A DNA stretch of 33,034 bases from Candidatus Thermoplasmatota archaeon (GTDB lineage: Archaea; Thermoplasmatota; Thermoplasmata; UBA10834). The position numbers and the translations under genes were made by a program. Shown one piece after another: positions 20,284-31,811 of this stretch. The notes under the pieces are model-generated. The model was not told where the DNA came from. It saw only the letters and a program-made list of their open reading frames with translations, and did not search any database. The number at the start of each line of letters is the position of its first letter. Within the stretch, counting starts at the first letter, position 1. The stretch covers positions 1-33,034 of the forward strand of contig JAHIZT010000046.1 in NCBI GenBank assembly GCA_018814355.1. The letters are read 5' to 3'.

Positions 20284-21390
20284 CTACTTAATAAAGTCTA
20301 GGCCCAAGTCCCTGGCCTTCTTCTCCTTCGACGGACCCAGTATGTGCTTGGACCTGACCCCTGTAATGACCACCATCACTCTTATGGTCTTGTCAAGAGT
20401 CTCGTCTATCGCGGCGCCCCAGATTATCCTCGCTCCGGAGCTGATCTTGGACTGTATGACCTCGGCCACCTGCTGCGCCTCCGTGACGGTCATGGACGGC
20501 CCTCCTGTGACGTTCACAAGGGCGGCAGTCGCGGCGCTGATATCCATCTCGATGAGCGGTGAGTTGATGGCCTCGTTGACCGCGGCAACGGCCGCGTCGT
20601 CATCATCCGATTCCCCGAGCCCTATCATGGCGACGCCTCCGGACTTCATGATCGTCTTGATGTCGTTGAAGTCCAGGTTGACTAGCCCGGGTTTCGTGAC
20701 GACCTCGATAATGCCCTTGATCGAGCGCATGAGCACCTCGTCAGCCACTTTGAACGCGGCGTTGACCGACAGCTTCGGAACGATGTCCAGCAAGCGGTCA
20801 TTCGGTATCACGATGACAGTGTCAGCTACCGTCCTGAGCCTCTCAAGACCCCACTCAGCGTTCTCAGCTCTGACCGCTCCTTCTGCCGCGAAGGGCCATG
20901 TGCAGATTGCGATCGTGAGAGCCCCTTGCTCCTTCGCAATCTGTGCCATGAACGGAGCCGATCCAGTGCCAGTACCTCCTCCCAGGCCGCATGTGATGAA
21001 CACGATGTCAGCGTCCTTGAGTGCCGCCTTGAGCTCCTCCTCGGCTTCCCTGGCAGCCTCCTCGCCGACCTGCGGAAGCGCACCTGCACCGAGCCCGCGC
21101 GTGACGCGCCTGCCCAGCAGGATCTTGTGTGGAGCCCTCGTCATGAGCAAGTGCTGAGCGTCAGTGTTGGCAGCATACAGCTCAGCGCCGATGATGCCAG
21201 CCTCTGCCAGTCTGTTGACGGTGTTCGACCCGCCGCCACCGCACCCGATGATCTTGATGTTTGTCTTGAGACCCTGCAGTATCCTCTGCAGCTCCTCATC
21301 TTCGGCCGTCATTGACCGGAACGTCTCTAGTGCCTTCTTCTGCTGCTCTTCATCGGCAGCGGATATGATGCTATCGACGAGGGACTTCAT
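20284..21390 (-). CDS. ftsZ: Cell division protein FtsZ (copy next to secE)
   Basis: The 368-residue FtsZ has all GTPase parts: nucleotide-binding [12 protein letters not shown] (49-60), the tubulin signature GGGTGTG (137-143), and the T7 loop [11 protein letters not shown] that completes the active site of the neighbouring subunit. A short C-terminal tail ends GLDFIK, similar to the conserved peptide that binds membrane anchors. It polymerises into the division ring. It lies 24 bases upstream of secE, as in many euryarchaea. GGAGG precedes the ATG by about 10 bases. A separate TATA-like box and an 8-bp inverted repeat precede it, so it may be expressed apart from the other copy. Confidence 0.96.
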
Positions 21391-21518: not shown

Positions 21519-22643
21519 TTAGCGGACCAGGTCGACCTCGCCAACGCCTCTGTACCTCTTCTCCGTCTGAGGCTTTCCGAGGATCTGCTTCGACTTCACC
21601 CCGGTCGCTACGATCATGACCCTTACGGTCTTGTCCATTGCAGGGTCGATTGCAGCTCCCCAGATTATCCTGGCGTTCGGTCCGACTCTTGCTTGGATCT
21701 CCTCGGCAGCCTTCTCCGCCTCAGAGATGGTCATGTCGGTTCCGCCGATGACATCCACGAGCACTCCGCTAGCCTCGCTGATATCGACCTCGAGCAACGG
21801 GGAGTTGAGCGCCTGGTCAATCGCTTCCTGAATCCTTTCTTCACCGGGGGCATCAGACTCGCCGAGTCCGATCATCGCAACGCCTGCTCCCTTCATGATA
21901 GTCTTGATATCGTTGAAATCCAGGTTGACGAGCCCTGGCCTGGTGATGACCTCGGTCAGTCCCTTTATGGACCTCATTAGGACCTCGTCCGCGACCTTGA
22001 ATGCCGCGTTCAGAGACAGCCTCGGGACGACCTCGAGCAGCTTGTCGTTCGGAATTATCACCACTGTGTCAGCAGCGTCCCTCAACCTCTCTAGTCCCCA
22101 CTCGGCGTTTTCCATCCTCATCTTGCCTTCGCCGCGGAATGGCAGAGTGGCGACCGCGATCGTGAGTGCACCCATCTCCTTGGCGATCTTGGCAACGACG
22201 CCTGCGCCGCCAGTCCCTGTGCCTCCGCCCAGGCCGCAAGTCACGAAACAGATGTGAGTGTCAACCAGGATCTTCTTCAGCTCCTCTTCGGCTTCTCTTG
22301 CGGCCTCCTCGCCGATCTGAGGCAAAGCGCCCGCACCAAGCCCTCTGGTGACTCTCCTTCCGAGGAGTATCTTGTGCGGTGCGTGAAGTGTGAGCAGGTG
22401 CTGCGCATCTGTGTTCGCAGCGTACAGCTCTGCGCCGATGATTCCCTCGTCATAGATTCGTGCGATAGTGTTCGTGCCGCCGCCGCCAACGCCTATGATC
22501 TTGATGTTTGTCTTCAGGCTCCTCAGTATCTGCTCAAGCTCGGCATCGACGCGCTGGTCGGCGCCGAGTGCTGCGGCTTGAGCCATGCTGGCTCCTTCGG
22601 TTTCTTCACGGGCAAGTGCGTCTTCGACTAGGGATCTCATCAT
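21519..22643 (-). CDS. ftsZ: Cell division protein FtsZ (distal tandem copy)
   Basis: This 374-residue FtsZ has [22 protein letters not shown] and the T7 loop [11 protein letters not shown]. It shares long identical stretches with the downstream copy, for example [19 protein letters not shown], apart from one residue, and [15 protein letters not shown]. Its N-terminus is longer and Ala-rich, and its C-terminal end (EVDLVR) lacks the GLDFIK-like peptide. Many archaea carry FtsZ1 and FtsZ2 with different roles in ring assembly and constriction; the tandem arrangement here may be such a pair, but I cannot assign which is which. AGGTGA lies 8 bases before the second ATG (22640). A TATA box lies near 22730. 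Confidence 0.96.
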
Positions 22644-26147: not shown

Positions 26148-26156
26148 TTATAAATA
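26148..26156 (+). promoter_or_regulatory. TATA box of the ribbon-helix-helix/ftsZ3 operon
   Basis: TTATAAATA matches the archaeal consensus closely. Transcription would begin near 26178, inside the first palindrome. Confidence 0.6.
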
Positions 26157-26172
26157 CTAACGAGTTCATACA

Positions 26173-26207
26173 TTCGTCAGACGAAAATGCCGTATTCGTC
26201 GGACGGC
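26173..26207. promoter_or_regulatory. Paired palindromic operator candidate
   Basis: TTCGTCAGACGAA (26173-26185) is a perfect palindrome around one central base. A degenerate copy, TTCGTCGGACGGC (26195-26207), lies 22 bases on, that is, two helical turns. The pair sits on the predicted transcription start of a gene for a double ribbon-helix-helix protein. These proteins bind short palindromes or direct repeats as dimers, so autoregulation is likely (inference). Confidence 0.55.
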
Positions 26208-26220
26208 AGAAGGTGACCAG

Positions 26221-26535
26221 ACGGTAGAATCAGAACGGGTCACAATCAGGTTGCCAGATGAGAGGATTCAGGCATTACAGGCTCTCGTTGACCAGGGCAA
26301 GTTCTCGACGATCTCCGACGCGATCCGCGCGGCGATAGATAAGTTCGTCGAGGGAGAGTTCACGCCCGAGTACATCGAGAAGATCACCGTGGAGTTACCC
26401 AAAGGCAATGTCGTCAACCTGAGGCAGCTCGTCCAGGAAGGCGACTCCGTCTCCGTCGACGACGCGATAAGGAACGCGGTGCGCGAATACATACGCAAGC
26501 GAGTGTCAAAAGCAATGGAAGAACTGGAAAGGTGA
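26221..26535 (+). CDS. Tandem ribbon-helix-helix regulator, probable ACG start
   Basis: Two ribbon-helix-helix units occur in one chain: ERVTIRLPDE...FSTISDAIRAAIDKF (residues 5-42) and EKITVELPKG...SVSVDDAIRNAVREY (53-90). The single chain may therefore behave as a dimer-like DNA-binding unit. The first unit needs the strand RVTIRLP, which lies upstream of the first canonical start (TTG at 26251). The only well-placed start is ACG at 26221, 4 bases after AGGTGA (26211-26216); GTA at 26224 is another possibility. An in-frame TAA lies at 26158-26160. The gene is just upstream of a divergent ftsZ, like the CdrS/ftsZ2 arrangement described in haloarchaea. It probably controls its own promoter and ftsZ3. 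Confidence 0.8.
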   Translation, partial: TVESERVTIRLPDERIQALQALVDQGKFSTISDAIRAAIDKFVEGEFTPEYIEKITVELPKGNVVNLRQLVQEGDSVSVDDAIRNAVREYIRKRVSKAMEELER

Positions 26536-26617
26536 CGCTCTAAACTCAAAGGGGATGGGATCATAGTCGCACACGCACACACACATGAGCTCATGCGCTC
26601 GAGGGGGCGGGCATAAG

Positions 26618-27670
26618 ATGCTCGACAAGCTCATCAAGGAGGCCCTCGACAGCGGGTGCGATTTCGAAGCACACCTCACCCCGAAGATGTGCGTCATTGG
26701 TTGCGGCGGCGGAGGCTCGAACAGCGTCCACAGACTGGGCAGGCTGGAGCTCGAAGGCGTCGACACCATAGCTATCAACTCCGACAGATTCCACCTCGCG
26801 CGCACTGAAGCGGACAAGCGCCTGCTTATCGGCGAGCACATTACCAACGGGTTCGGCACCGGAGGCGATCCTGCGGTCGGCGAGAAGATGGCCTACGCCG
26901 ACATCGACAAGATCGATGCTATCGTCCGAGATTACGATGTCGTATTCATCACAGCTGGCATGGGCGGAGGCACCGGCACCGGAACAGCACCAGTCGTCGC
27001 TGAGACCGCCAAGAAGCACGGTGCGGTCGTAGTCGCTCTCGTCACACTACCATTCGACATCGAGAAGAGCAGGTTGAAGACTGCGCTCATGGGCATCGCG
27101 AAACTGAAAGGACGGGCTCATAGCACGATAATCCTAGACAACAACAAGTTGCTAGAGATAGTGCCGAAACTGCCCGTAGAGCAGGCCTTCATGGTGATGG
27201 ACCAGCTCATATCCGAAGTGATCAAAGGGATCACTGAAACGATCTGCCAAACGAGCATGATCAACCTGGACTTCGCGGACTTCCGGACCATGATGATTCA
27301 TGGCGGAGCCTCGACCGTTCTGTACGGCGAAAGTGAGGATCCAGAGAAAGTGGTGCTGGAAGCGCTCAACAACCCCTTGCTCGATGTCGACCTTGAGGGA
27401 GCAACAGGCGCCCTGATACACATCACGGGCGGCCCCTCCCTCTCCCTGAGGAAGGCCTACCAGGTCTTCAACGGGGTCACGAGCGAGCTCAGCGACCGCG
27501 CGAACGTGAAGCTAGGCGCGAGGATCGAACCGGAGTTCGGAAACAACATCAAGCTCATCGGGATCGTGACCGGGATAACCTCCATGGATTCTCCGAGGCG
27601 GTCGATCGGAATCGACGAGATCGGTTATGATCAACCAGCTGGCCTAGCTGGCATCGACATGTTAGGATGA
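26618..27670 (+). CDS. Third, divergent FtsZ paralogue
   Basis: This 350-residue protein keeps the FtsZ core: [15 protein letters not shown] (25-39), GGGTGTG (117-123) and T7 loop NLDFADFRTMM. GTP binding and subunit-activated hydrolysis are therefore expected. It departs strongly from the tandem pair: INSDRFHLART replaces the NTDAQHLL region, GEHITNGFGTGGDPAVGEK replaces [15 protein letters not shown], and no GLDFIK-type tail is present. It is not CetZ, which lacks NLDFxD. The ATG at 26585 is in frame, but 26618 has a G-rich Shine-Dalgarno site and fits the usual FtsZ N-terminus. It follows the ribbon-helix-helix gene with an 82-base gap, probably on one transcript. Confidence 0.93.
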   Translation: MLDKLIKEALDSGCDFEAHLTPKMCVIGCGGGGSNSVHRLGRLELEGVDTIAINSDRFHLARTEADKRLLIGEHITNGFGTGGDPAVGEKMAYADIDKIDAIVRDYDVVFITAGMGGGTGTGTAPVVAETAKKHGAVVVALVTLPFDIEKSRLKTALMGIAKLKGRAHSTIILDNNKLLEIVPKLPVEQAFMVMDQLISEVIKGITETICQTSMINLDFADFRTMMIHGGASTVLYGESEDPEKVVLEALNNPLLDVDLEGATGALIHITGGPSLSLRKAYQVFNGVTSELSDRANVKLGARIEPEFGNNIKLIGIVTGITSMDSPRRSIGIDEIGYDQPAGLAGIDMLG

Positions 27671-27800
27671 ACTAATTCCCGTTCCATGAAGCTTACCCGT
27701 CCATCCCGTGCAGGATGGCGGTGTTCACTTCCAGCTTCATCGATCCGACTCGCGGCGCCCTCGCGGGTGCCGTGGAGGTCAAATCTCCACAGGCGTTTAA
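27671..27800 (-). ncRNA. Candidate TnpB guide RNA (omega/reRNA) region
   Basis: In related elements the guide RNA overlaps the 3' end of tnpB and runs past its stop to the element right end. Here that stretch contains a 6-bp hairpin, CCATCC/GGATGG, around the spacer TGCACG on the minus strand (27702-27719), followed by GGAACGGGAATTAG. The exact ends, and so the guide, cannot be fixed from the sequence. Confidence 0.3.
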
Positions 27801-28913
27801 GGTCTCCGTGGAACTCACGGCGACCAGATTGAGAGCCGCGTTCAGGTCTCTGTCGAGGACCAGTCCGCAGTTCTTGCACTTGTAAGTCCTCTCAGACAAG
27901 GGCATCTCTTTCCTGATGTGGCCACACAAGGAGCATCGCTTCGTTGACGGGTAGAACCTTGGTGCCACAGTCAAATGGCTCCCGTAACACCGGCACTTGT
28001 ACTCGAGCTGCCGGCGGAACTCCCCCATTCCCACGTCTGAAATGGCTCGCGCCAGACGCCGGTCCTTTCCCATACCTCGCACATTGAGGTCTTCGATGAC
28101 GATCTCGCCGTGGTTTTTGGCGAGCTTCGTCGTCGCCTTGTGCAAGGCGTCCCTGCGAACGTTTCCAATGCGCCAGTAAACCTTCGCCAATCTGTCAGCG
28201 GATTTCTTCCGATTGTTGCTTCCTTCATGCCTCCTATGCAGCTCCTTTGCGAGTCTGCGTAGCTTCTGCAGGTGAGAGTGTAAGGGCTTAGGGTTCTCGA
28301 AAACGTGTCCGTCTGAGAGAGTCACCATGTGATATACGCCGAGGTCTACACCTACCGCAGGACCCGATGGCGATTGGGGATTTGGAGCATTCAGTTCGAC
28401 CGTGAAGGATACGAACCACCGGTTGGTGTCTCGGCTGACGGTCGCGCGGAGGATTCGCCCATCGAAGATTGCAGGTTCTTTGACGCGCACGTGCCCGATG
28501 CGGGGAAGGACAACGTGAGTGCCTTCTGCGCGTATAGCGCCTGCTGTGAATGCGAATGCATCCCTCCCCCTTCCCTTCTTCTTGAAATTCGGGAGCCGAG
28601 CTTTCCGGCCTGCCTTCCGCGCCTTCCGGTAGAGAATATATGCGGAGTCGAGGTTGCGGAGGGCTTCCTGTGGGATGCACTTGGATACTTCGTACATCCA
28701 TGGGAAATCCGTCTTCTTGAGGACGTTTAGGCGGCGGTGCTGCTCGATGGCATTCGTGAACCGCTCGTCACCCTGCTTTTCAAGGTACAGTCGCTGGCGC
28801 TCGTAGAGAGCCCAGTTCCACGCGAACCTGGTGACCCCAGCGCACTTGGCGAAGAGAGTCCGCTGTGCGTTGTTTGGCTTCAATTCGAAGCGGTGCGCTT
28901 GGTTAATGATCAT
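27693..28913 (-). CDS. tnpB: RNA-guided endonuclease TnpB (IS605 OrfB)
   Basis: The 406-residue protein is an intact TnpB. The wedge/REC N-terminus begins with HRFELKPNNAQRTLFAKCAG. The RuvC catalytic residues are D190 in GVDLGV, E274 in VIEDLNV and D356 in DRDLNAALN, with a zinc finger C327/C330/C346/C349 between the last two. The family cuts DNA next to a short target-adjacent motif, directed by an RNA from the element's right end. The frame extends up to 29006, but the ATG at 28913 has GGAGGT 8 bases upstream and matches the family start. The nearest neighbours are ftsZ3 and trmJ; no inactivating change is visible. Confidence 0.93.
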   Translation of the reverse strand: MIINQAHRFELKPNNAQRTLFAKCAGVTRFAWNWALYERQRLYLEKQGDERFTNAIEQHRRLNVLKKTDFPWMYEVSKCIPQEALRNLDSAYILYRKARKAGRKARLPNFKKKGRGRDAFAFTAGAIRAEGTHVVLPRIGHVRVKEPAIFDGRILRATVSRDTNRWFVSFTVELNAPNPQSPSGPAVGVDLGVYHMVTLSDGHVFENPKPLHSHLQKLRRLAKELHRRHEGSNNRKKSADRLAKVYWRIGNVRRDALHKATTKLAKNHGEIVIEDLNVRGMGKDRRLARAISDVGMGEFRRQLEYKCRCYGSHLTVAPRFYPSTKRCSLCGHIRKEMPLSERTYKCKNCGLVLDRDLNAALNLVAVSSTETLNACGDLTSTAPARAPRVGSMKLEVNTAILHGMDG

Positions 28914-29010
28914 CAGCTGAGACCTCCAGGGTGGAAACACCGCTGGGCCGTGTCGTAGTCCGTTCCCGTCCCCCAAGCCACATCCGCTAGTCTCACGCCC
29001 ATTCATGGCC

Positions 29011-29827: not shown

Positions 29828-30631
29828 GTGGACCAGGAACGCAGGATCGCAATCAAGTTCGCATACGACGGTTCGCTCTTTCACGGCTTTCAGCGGCAAC
29901 CGAACATGGTCACCGTCGAGGGGGAGCTGGTGAGAGCGCTGACGAAGGTCGGCGCGATCAAGTCGTCGAGGGAGTGCGGATATAGGGGTTCGAGCAGGAC
30001 GGACACGGGCGTGAGCGCCCTCGGGAACATCATCTCCTTCAAGACATCCTTCAAGACGGACGAGATATGCTCTGCGATCAACTCGAAGATGGAGGGCATC
30101 TGGGCCTACTCCTCCGTCGAGGTGCCGGATGCGTTCAACCCGCGGGCGGCAAGGCAGAGGTGGTACAGATACTATCTTGCGAAGGCCGGCCAGGACCTGA
30201 GGCTGATGGATGAGATCGCCAGAAGGTTCGTCGGCGTGCACGATTTCTCAGGCTATGCGCGCAAGGACAAGCGGAACCCCATGAGGAAGATAGATTCGAT
30301 CGACATCTCCGATGCTGGGATGTTCCATGCCGTCGATTTCAGGGCCGAGAGCTTTCTGTGGAATATGGTCCGGAGGATTGTCTGGATGATGAGTGAGGGA
30401 GGTTCCGGTCGTCTTCAGCTGGATTTTATCGGGCCGGGGTCGGCGAAGAAACCGGTCCGCATAGGTCTCGCTCCTCCAGAGTATCTCGTGCTGATGGACA
30501 TCGATTGCGGCGTCGAGTTTCCGGTCGACAGGCAGGCATCGATTGGTATTGCCCGCGCAATCGAACGAAGGATACGCGAGAACGGCATGAAGTTTGCCTT
30601 CTCTCAGAGCGTCCGTGAACTGCTCAGATGA
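29828..30631 (+). CDS. truA: tRNA pseudouridine synthase A
   Basis: The 267-residue enzyme has the catalytic Asp in SSRTDTGVSALGN (D59), the FAYDGSLFHGFQRQP start, and the C-terminal block FLWNMVRRIVWMM typical of TruA. It converts uridines 38-40 of the tRNA anticodon arm. The start is GTG without a Shine-Dalgarno site, matching a leaderless transcript from the shared TATA box. The stop overlaps the next ATG as ATGA. It pairs functionally with trmJ across the divergent promoter, since both modify the tRNA anticodon region. Confidence 0.94.
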   Translation: MDQERRIAIKFAYDGSLFHGFQRQPNMVTVEGELVRALTKVGAIKSSRECGYRGSSRTDTGVSALGNIISFKTSFKTDEICSAINSKMEGIWAYSSVEVPDAFNPRAARQRWYRYYLAKAGQDLRLMDEIARRFVGVHDFSGYARKDKRNPMRKIDSIDISDAGMFHAVDFRAESFLWNMVRRIVWMMSEGGSGRLQLDFIGPGSAKKPVRIGLAPPEYLVLMDIDCGVEFPVDRQASIGIARAIERRIRENGMKFAFSQSVRELLR

Positions 30632-31200
30632 TACCGCAGTTTCCTCTGAAACTTGATATCCGCGCATCCTGGTATCCCAGTTGCATGAGGATCGCCGTCA
30701 CCGGCACTCCGGGGGTGGGAAAGACCAGTGCATGCTCCCTCGTCAGGAGGATGCTGGTTCTGCACGTCAACGACCTTGTCGAGAAGTTCGATGCAGCCTC
30801 TGGCTATGATCGAAAGCGCAAGACCCGAGAGGTGAACGTCACCAAGCTCTCCAAGGAGATATCGAAGCTGGAAGGCGACATGGTCCTTGAGGGCCACTTC
30901 TCGCATATGCTCAAACCTGATGTCGCTGTCGTGCTGCGCTGCTCCCCTGCCGTGCTTGAGAAGCGCCTTCGCAAGAAAGGTTGGGACGAGAAGAAGATTC
31001 GGGAGAATGTCGAGGCCGAAGCCGTCGACGTAGTCCTCATAGAGGCGTTGGAGAACGCGGGTGAAGTGTGCGAGATAGACACGACCCACCTGAAGCCGAG
31101 CCAGGTCGCCAAAGCCATCGAGGACATCATATCTGGAGAAAGACAGAAATATCGTGTTGGTAATGTTGACTGGAGCGAGGAGGTCCTGAGCTGGTTCTAG
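30628..31200 (+). CDS. Adenylate kinase of the AK6/Fap7 type
   Basis: This P-loop NMP kinase has MRIAVTGTPGVGKTSA followed by HVNDLVEKF and DMVLEGHFSHML. These features fit the AK6/Fap7/hCINAP group, whose members work in small-subunit ribosome maturation and have adenylate kinase activity. An ATGA overlap with truA gives a start at 30628 and a 19-residue N-terminal extension. The family normally starts at the ATG at 30685, yet neither has a good Shine-Dalgarno site. Its 3' end contains the Shine-Dalgarno site and CTG of the next gene. Confidence 0.86.
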   Translation: MIPQFPLKLDIRASWYPSCMRIAVTGTPGVGKTSACSLVRRMLVLHVNDLVEKFDAASGYDRKRKTREVNVTKLSKEISKLEGDMVLEGHFSHMLKPDVAVVLRCSPAVLEKRLRKKGWDEKKIRENVEAEAVDVVLIEALENAGEVCEIDTTHLKPSQVAKAIEDIISGERQKYRVGNVDWSEEVLSWF

Positions 31201-31811
31201 ACAGTTATCGCGGAGAAGCAGACAAGATCCTCTCCCCTGCGGCGAAGCGGCTCAGCACAATAAATCCGAACTATCTGTCACTCTCATCACTGATTCTCGC
31301 CATTGCGGCAGCGCTGTTCTACGTCATGAAATGGGACCAGGCCCTATTGATCGCAGCTGTGTTCGTCGCCCTCAGCGGCATCTTCGACGCGCTCGATGGG
31401 AAGGTGGCGCGCATCTCGTCGAAGGCCTCGAAGCGCGGCGACTTCGTCGACCACGTGATCGACAGATACTCAGATGCGATCATACTGGCGGCGATTGCCA
31501 TGAGCGCTATCTGCCCCGTCTCATTCGGTTTGTTTGCCGTCATCGGGGTCCTCCTCGCGAGCTACATGGGAACGCAGGCGCAGGCGCTCGGCCTTAGCCG
31601 GGAGTACCGTGGCATACTCGGGCGCGCTGACAGAATCGCGGTTCTGATAGCCGTCTCATTGATAATGTACCTCTTCCAGCTCGTCGGGAGCGATGTCATG
31701 AACGACCTGCTAGGATACACCTTGATGGGCTGGATGATGATATACTTCGGACTCGCGGGCAACATCACGGCCCTTCAGCGCGCGTGGCTGATATGGAAAT
31801 CACTTCCGTGA
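31191..31811 (+). CDS. CDP-alcohol phosphatidyltransferase family protein, probable CTG start
   Basis: The signature DALDGKVAR-x8-GDFVDHVID fits D-x2-DG-x2-AR-x8-G-x3-D-x3-D exactly. With five to six membrane helices it likely makes an archaeal phospholipid such as archaetidylinositol phosphate or a related lipid. The first ATG (31326) would delete the conserved N-terminal part SPAAKRLSTINPNYLSLSSL. That part is encoded in frame after a TGA at 31167, and the only well-placed start is CTG at 31191, 6 bases after GGAGGT (31179-31184). This gives 206 residues, the usual family length, and overlaps the end of the kinase gene by 10 bases. It overlaps the convergent primase gene by 12 bases. Confidence 0.88.
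   Translation: MVLDSYRGEADKILSPAAKRLSTINPNYLSLSSLILAIAAALFYVMKWDQALLIAAVFVALSGIFDALDGKVARISSKASKRGDFVDHVIDRYSDAIILAAIAMSAICPVSFGLFAVIGVLLASYMGTQAQALGLSREYRGILGRADRIAVLIAVSLIMYLFQLVGSDVMNDLLGYTLMGWMMIYFGLAGNITALQRAWLIWKSLP

Follow-up and report, generated by a model that had tools for sequence, protein, structure and literature searches.

In haloarchaea, the gene of the ribbon-helix-helix (RHH) protein CdrS lies directly 5' of ftsZ2 (VNG0194H-VNG0192G in Halobacterium salinarum and HVO_0582-HVO_0581 in Haloferax volcanii; PMC7439475, PMC8406309), and such cdrS-ftsZ2 linkage has already been published archaea-wide (PMC7439475, PMC9871819). Haloferax CdrS binds upstream of ftsZ1, most of its sites precede the start by 41-110 nt, and knock-down of cdrS-ftsZ2 lowers ftsZ1, ftsZ2, sepF, an smc homologue and the membrane protein HVO_0739 (PMC8406309). 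In the genome studied here a CdrS-type RHH gene is likewise found directly 5' of ftsZ2, so that the analogy to CdrS drawn in an earlier note on this DNA is supported. However, haloarchaeal CdrS is a 55-aa single RHH protein, whereas two RHH units are joined here in about 104 aa. The promoters differ as well: the Halobacterium operon promoter is bound by CdrL, which is absent outside Halobacteria, whereas a pair of GTCNGAC palindromes covers the operon's own start here. What is new consists of the tandem regulator, this operator and the regulon predicted for division and segregation; the papers found by our literature search described none of them.

The window, i.e. the whole stretch of 33,034 nucleotides of a Candidatus Thermoplasmatota archaeon that was analysed, carries on its + strand a TATA box, two palindromes, the RHH gene and an ftsZ gene, in that order and at the place where the earlier note had put them. 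The same note had called the FtsZ divergent, but both genes lie on the same strand with a gap of 82 bp, and the FtsZ is divergent at most in sequence. The TATA box (TTATAAATA, +) is found at about 26148-26156. Palindrome 1 (CGTCAGACG, 26175-26183) is followed 22 bp (two helical turns) downstream by palindrome 2 (CGTCGGACG, 26197-26205), neither being assigned to a strand, and then by a Shine-Dalgarno-like AAGGTGA (26210-26216, +). Given that in relatives with a visible TATA box the TATA match starts mostly 25-32 bp 5' of the operator's first GTC, transcription would be expected to start at palindrome 1, with palindrome 2 located in the 5' leader. On the other side of the locus, an IS605-type TnpB-like gene (27693-29006, - strand) has its convergent end about 23 bp past ftsZ2.

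The RHH gene is placed at 26221-26535 (+), with an inferred ACG start. Its frame holds no ATG, GTG or TTG upstream of 26251, and a start at the TTG located there, which is the expected choice of a gene caller, would cost the protein its first beta strand. The start region of relatives reads CAG-ATG-GTC-GAG, sometimes with GTG or TTG, and the one of this genome reads CAG-ACG-GTA-GAA, 3' of the AAGGTGA. Since the relatives' ATG aligns at ACG 26221 and the Shine-Dalgarno-like motif stands just 5' of it, this ACG is most likely the start of the gene; it may be a real start codon in use or an assembly error, and the protein is intact either way. An ACG is also seen at the start position in a relative from another family (G038, locus L025), 3' of GGAGG. 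A frameshift in the RHH gene, from an ATG at 26187 to a TGA, was considered as well and ruled out because the relatives start later, at the position equivalent to the ACG.

The two RHH units that had been proposed for this single chain are both recognised. Unit 1 (26233-26361, +) is matched by Pfam RHH_1 (PF01402), a DNA-binding domain, above its cut-off and with an E-value of 1.6e-10. Unit 2 (26377-26505, +) is identified through the match of its profile to that of unit 1 (HHalign, 97.7%, E 1.6e-12, 43 columns aligned) and, since the two halves align to each other, the regulator is on this comparison an internal duplication of a CdrS-type RHH. Furthermore, the NCBIfam CdrS model (NF058555, a haloarchaeal equivalog) matches two stretches of the protein with an E-value of 2.3e-16 and 59.5 bits, a score below the curated cut-off of 100, and the tandem chain is longer than the single-domain CdrS form of about 55-61 aa. 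Among 48 sequences of relatives, the residues R5, T7 and R9 of unit 1, which form the presumed DNA-reading strand R-T-R, are invariant; unit 2 displays K/R-T-E at the matching positions and is the more conserved half. Unit 1 would read the DNA, and the main role of unit 2 would be to join chains. The pairing of the units is not settled by the AlphaFold model of the monomer, which is poor (pLDDT 60). Another small archaeal RHH cell-cycle regulator, aCcr1 of the Sulfolobales, shows a weak match to this protein (17.8 bits against a cut-off of 60), but it is a single RHH with no ftsZ linkage, whereas the present regulator is tandem and ftsZ2-linked. The Sulfolobales divide by ESCRT-type proteins.

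The FtsZ of the pair (350 aa, from the ATG at 26618 to 27670, +) scores 333.6 bits with TIGR00065, for which the cut-off is 295.2, and carries the GTPase and C-terminal domains (PF00091 and PF12327). In a tree rooted on bacterial FtsZ, from which rows on very long branches were excluded, the archaeal proteins split into an FtsZ1 and an FtsZ2 clade. The FtsZ2 clade, with a support of 100/100, contains this FtsZ, every RHH-linked FtsZ of the class that the tree retained, and two FtsZs from haloarchaeal plasmids which are FtsZ2-like by similarity, one of them with an RHH neighbour. The FtsZ1 clade contains FtsZ1 of M. jannaschii, a Natronorubrum FtsZ, the two minus-strand FtsZs of the window and two further copies from the same genome. 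By its position in this tree the FtsZ at 26618-27670 is an ordinary archaeal FtsZ2, contrary to the view that it was no ordinary FtsZ1/2. It is one of seven FtsZ/tubulin-family genes of this genome (mostly seven to nine in relatives of the same family), and the other two of the window are FtsZ1. Of these two, paralogue a (20284-21390, -) adjoins secE and Spt5/ribosomal genes and scores 392.7 bits against M. jannaschii FtsZ1, and paralogue b is at 21519-22643 (-). The copy number reflects mostly an expansion within the FtsZ1 clade, and divergently transcribed pairs are seen in relatives (G008:C4:184751 and 185870). The genome also has a second RHH-ftsZ pair (G000:C82, about 30026-31260; L177, 3446-4760), found in other family members too, in which a tandem RHH paralogue is followed by a short FtsZ of 276 aa. 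This FtsZ has a lost or diverged C-terminal part and sits on a long branch outside FtsZ1 and FtsZ2, and the pair is without the GTCNGAC operator.

One scan of public genomes provided 80 loci from Thermoplasmata, Methanomassiliicoccales or unclassified euryarchaeal records. An FtsZ gene lies directly downstream of the RHH gene, on the same strand, at 74 of the 76 judgeable Thermoplasmata loci, with one FtsZ2 clade involved, and the pairing of the two genes thus holds in relatives. The tandem form is widespread across class Thermoplasmata. The FtsZ2s that have a tandem-RHH neighbour form one subclade (support 96/94), which argues that the tandem regulator probably has one origin. In the sister classes of Thermoplasmatota the single RHH is kept at most loci, and the FtsZs beside these single-RHH CdrS proteins, when added to the tree, fall into the same FtsZ2 clade. 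The sister-class loci (L225-L238) have the gene pair, the FtsZ2 clade and an upstream palindrome in common with the present locus, but their CdrS consists of one RHH unit and a helical-looking tail instead of two units. In family f17 of class Thermoplasmata (L213-L222) the tandem RHH is kept with no adjoining FtsZ gene and mostly no upstream palindrome, and the regulator there is apparently uncoupled from ftsZ2. One relative (G015) displays two tandem cdrS-ftsZ2 loci (C9:653 and C69:2090), possibly as a result of a strain mixture in the assembly.

The double operator was sought, as YGTCNGACR-N13-YGTCNGACR, in the 150 bp preceding the RHH domain. The strict pair was observed at 60 of the 80 loci, and is absent at the other 20, compared to 0 of 3006 control windows taken from the same loci; the corresponding figures for a single palindrome are 77/80 and 34/3006. 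The spacing of the palindromes in relatives is exactly 22 bp in 61 of 65 cases. In the 2.06 Mb genome under study the exact 22-bp pair occurs once, and the reversed control pattern gives 0 matches. In the window, single palindromes are no commoner than expected (2 found for 4.2 expected), and with 1-2 mismatches allowed the 22-bp pair shows no excess elsewhere in the genome (93 matches compared to 112 for the control). At the single-RHH cdrS-ftsZ2 loci of the sister classes, a palindrome was found upstream in 14 of the 14 loci read, usually as one perfect copy, and in several of them a degenerate TGTC half-site follows about 21 bp on. The idea of one palindrome per RHH unit is too simple, given that several single-RHH loci retain this degenerate second half-site.

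The operator is not confined to the cdrS-ftsZ2 promoter. It recurs, and is conserved, at xerA, at smc, at the gene of a membrane protein, at two small-protein genes and, in some relatives, at ftsZ1; being shared with other promoters, it does not fit the self-contained module that had been proposed, and the locus looks, from its sequences, like the centre of a regulon for division and segregation. The 22-bp pair is also present 5' of ftsZ1 in one relative (G037) and 5' of another ftsZ2-like gene in a second one (G032). Of 92 FtsZ genes that lack an RHH neighbour, 13 have a palindrome no more than 250 bp away, about seven times the control rate, and in the genome under study there is no site near its other FtsZ genes or the sepF promoter. 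A tighter arrangement, GTCNGAC-N4-GTCNGAC, with an 11-bp spacing, was compared with its reversed pattern as control: in the genomes scanned 56 exact pairs were found versus 9, and in this genome's own family 37 versus 4. Among 29 sampled loci with the 11-bp pair, 12 have it directly 5' of smc, 13 have it 5' of the membrane-protein gene and 1 has it at cdrS, 26 in all. In this genome alone, the 11-bp pair with 1 mismatch shows no excess in number (10 versus 8 in the control), and its copies are convincing only through their position and their conservation in relatives.

Near-exact 11-bp pairs in this genome stand just 5' of a XerA-type recombinase gene and of two small-protein genes (G000:C74:19050-19406 and C94:22395-22679). 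These genes were chosen for having a site in this genome, so that only the test on orthologues, which are themselves mutually related, is independent. A palindrome is found 33-51 bp 5' of the start in 17 of 18 xerA orthologues, and the operator is present in 30 of 30 orthologues of the small-protein genes (15/15 each). The small proteins diverge to 31-62% identity, and in their promoters the operator columns are conserved at 0.93-1.0 versus 0.56-0.74 in the flanks. For smc, 6 of the 10 genomes read from the class showed the palindrome, compared to 0 of 20 from the sister classes. The genomes counted in these tests are related and do not represent independent events, but sites at smc, xerA and the membrane-protein gene do extend beyond single families. 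The operator-bearing membrane protein (419 aa; L255, 427-1683; G000:C124) is conserved in the class and has no match in Pfam, NCBIfam or plasmid records; it displays several apparent membrane spans and a long polar tail. It is a candidate division protein and may be comparable to Haloferax HVO_0739. The targets also recall Haloferax in that ftsZ1 and smc respond to CdrS there, and smc and, in some relatives, ftsZ1 carry the palindrome here.

In haloarchaea, the ftsZ1 promoter of a Natronorubrum plasmid (L173) contains CGTCAGACA-GT-CGTCTGACG about 46-66 bp 5' of the ATG. These palindromes precede a TATA-like stretch, which is the place expected for a site of Haloferax-type CdrS. This suggests one operator across two phyla, the haloarchaeal link coming from this one promoter. 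Most Haloferax sites are upstream of promoters, whereas the sites here are at or downstream of the predicted start, which suggests that haloarchaea place the operator upstream, for activation, and that the present lineage places it on the start site, for repression.

We consider it likely that the locus represents the archaeal cdrS-ftsZ2 operon in the form that it takes in class Thermoplasmata, and that its doubled CdrS binds and represses it and controls a regulon in trans. The sequences compared here establish gene identity, linkage, phylogeny, operator conservation and operator recurrence at other genes, and the binding, repression and unit pairing that we infer would proceed as follows. 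Tandem CdrS would bind the GTCNGAC palindromes, unit 1, with the R-T-R strand of single-RHH CdrS, probably pairing at each palindrome with unit 1 of a second chain. Unit 2 would bridge the bound dimers and so hold together sites at a distance of one helical turn (11 bp) or two (22 bp). NikR, an RHH protein in which a pair of dimers is joined by a central nickel-binding domain, offers the same geometry, since its two RHH dimers contact half-sites about 22 bp apart; the joining role of the nickel-binding domain would be taken here by a second RHH unit. The PDB sequence matches of the regulator include NikR chains. Given that the palindromes cover the predicted start and the leader, binding would repress cdrS-ftsZ2 and keep FtsZ2 at a set level. 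In trans, the same protein would act on xerA, smc, the class-conserved membrane protein and the two small proteins, and this control would tie chromosome resolution and segregation to constriction driven by FtsZ2.

Other readings have to be weighed against this one. Since the linkage is published throughout archaea (PMC7439475, PMC9871819) and the FtsZ falls into the FtsZ2 clade, the locus might be a plain member of the cdrS-ftsZ2 family, in which the doubling of the RHH is a neutral feature of the lineage and no particular regulon is attached to it. We regard this as unlikely, given that the operator is conserved far above background at the xerA, smc, membrane-protein and small-protein promoters and that the tandem form, throughout the class, tracks one ftsZ2 clade. 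The palindromes could otherwise be real operators of another conserved factor, with the RHH protein acting elsewhere: its binding is predicted from sequence, and the genome has other RHH paralogues (C82, C109). However, the palindrome tracks cdrS through the phylum in both tandem and single-RHH forms, an RHH dimer fits a site that is short and symmetric, and the palindrome is present at a haloarchaeal ftsZ1 promoter, ftsZ1 being bound by CdrS in Haloferax (PMC8406309), which together make a separate factor quite improbable.

The direction of the control has to be considered as well. Activation of cdrS-ftsZ2 and the other genes, instead of repression, would agree with Haloferax, in which sites mostly 41-110 nt upstream are found and ftsZ1 falls on CdrS depletion (PMC8406309), and we keep it as a minor possibility; against it, the sites here coincide with the predicted start or lie beyond it, about 30 bp past the TATA box, and at xerA and the small-protein genes they are close 5' of the start codons, a position typical of repression. 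Finally, the earlier note's own reading had an FtsZ of a new clade and, beside it, a new and self-contained regulator. In its favour, the tandem architecture is real and the FtsZ belongs to a set of seven paralogues, but the 100/100 support for the FtsZ2 clade refutes the new clade, and with the operator common to other genes the reading is very hard to sustain.

Returning to a repressing tandem CdrS with targets in trans, we lean slightly towards the broader view that doubled CdrS and GTCNGAC constitute a dedicated cell-cycle regulon, in which dimer resolution and segregation would be coupled to FtsZ2 constriction and in which the operator has switched position relative to haloarchaea. Its members would be cdrS-ftsZ2, xerA, smc, the membrane protein, the two small proteins and, in some lineages, ftsZ1, and FtsZ2 is predicted to act here as the constricting division ring. 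As regards how archaea that divide by FtsZ coordinate division with segregation, CdrS is the principal regulator known so far, and functional work on it has, to our knowledge, been confined to haloarchaea. For a different phylum, the present locus would add a defined DNA operator, a regulator in doubled form and a small set of predicted co-regulated genes, xerA and smc among them, and the membrane protein and the small proteins become candidate division or segregation factors.
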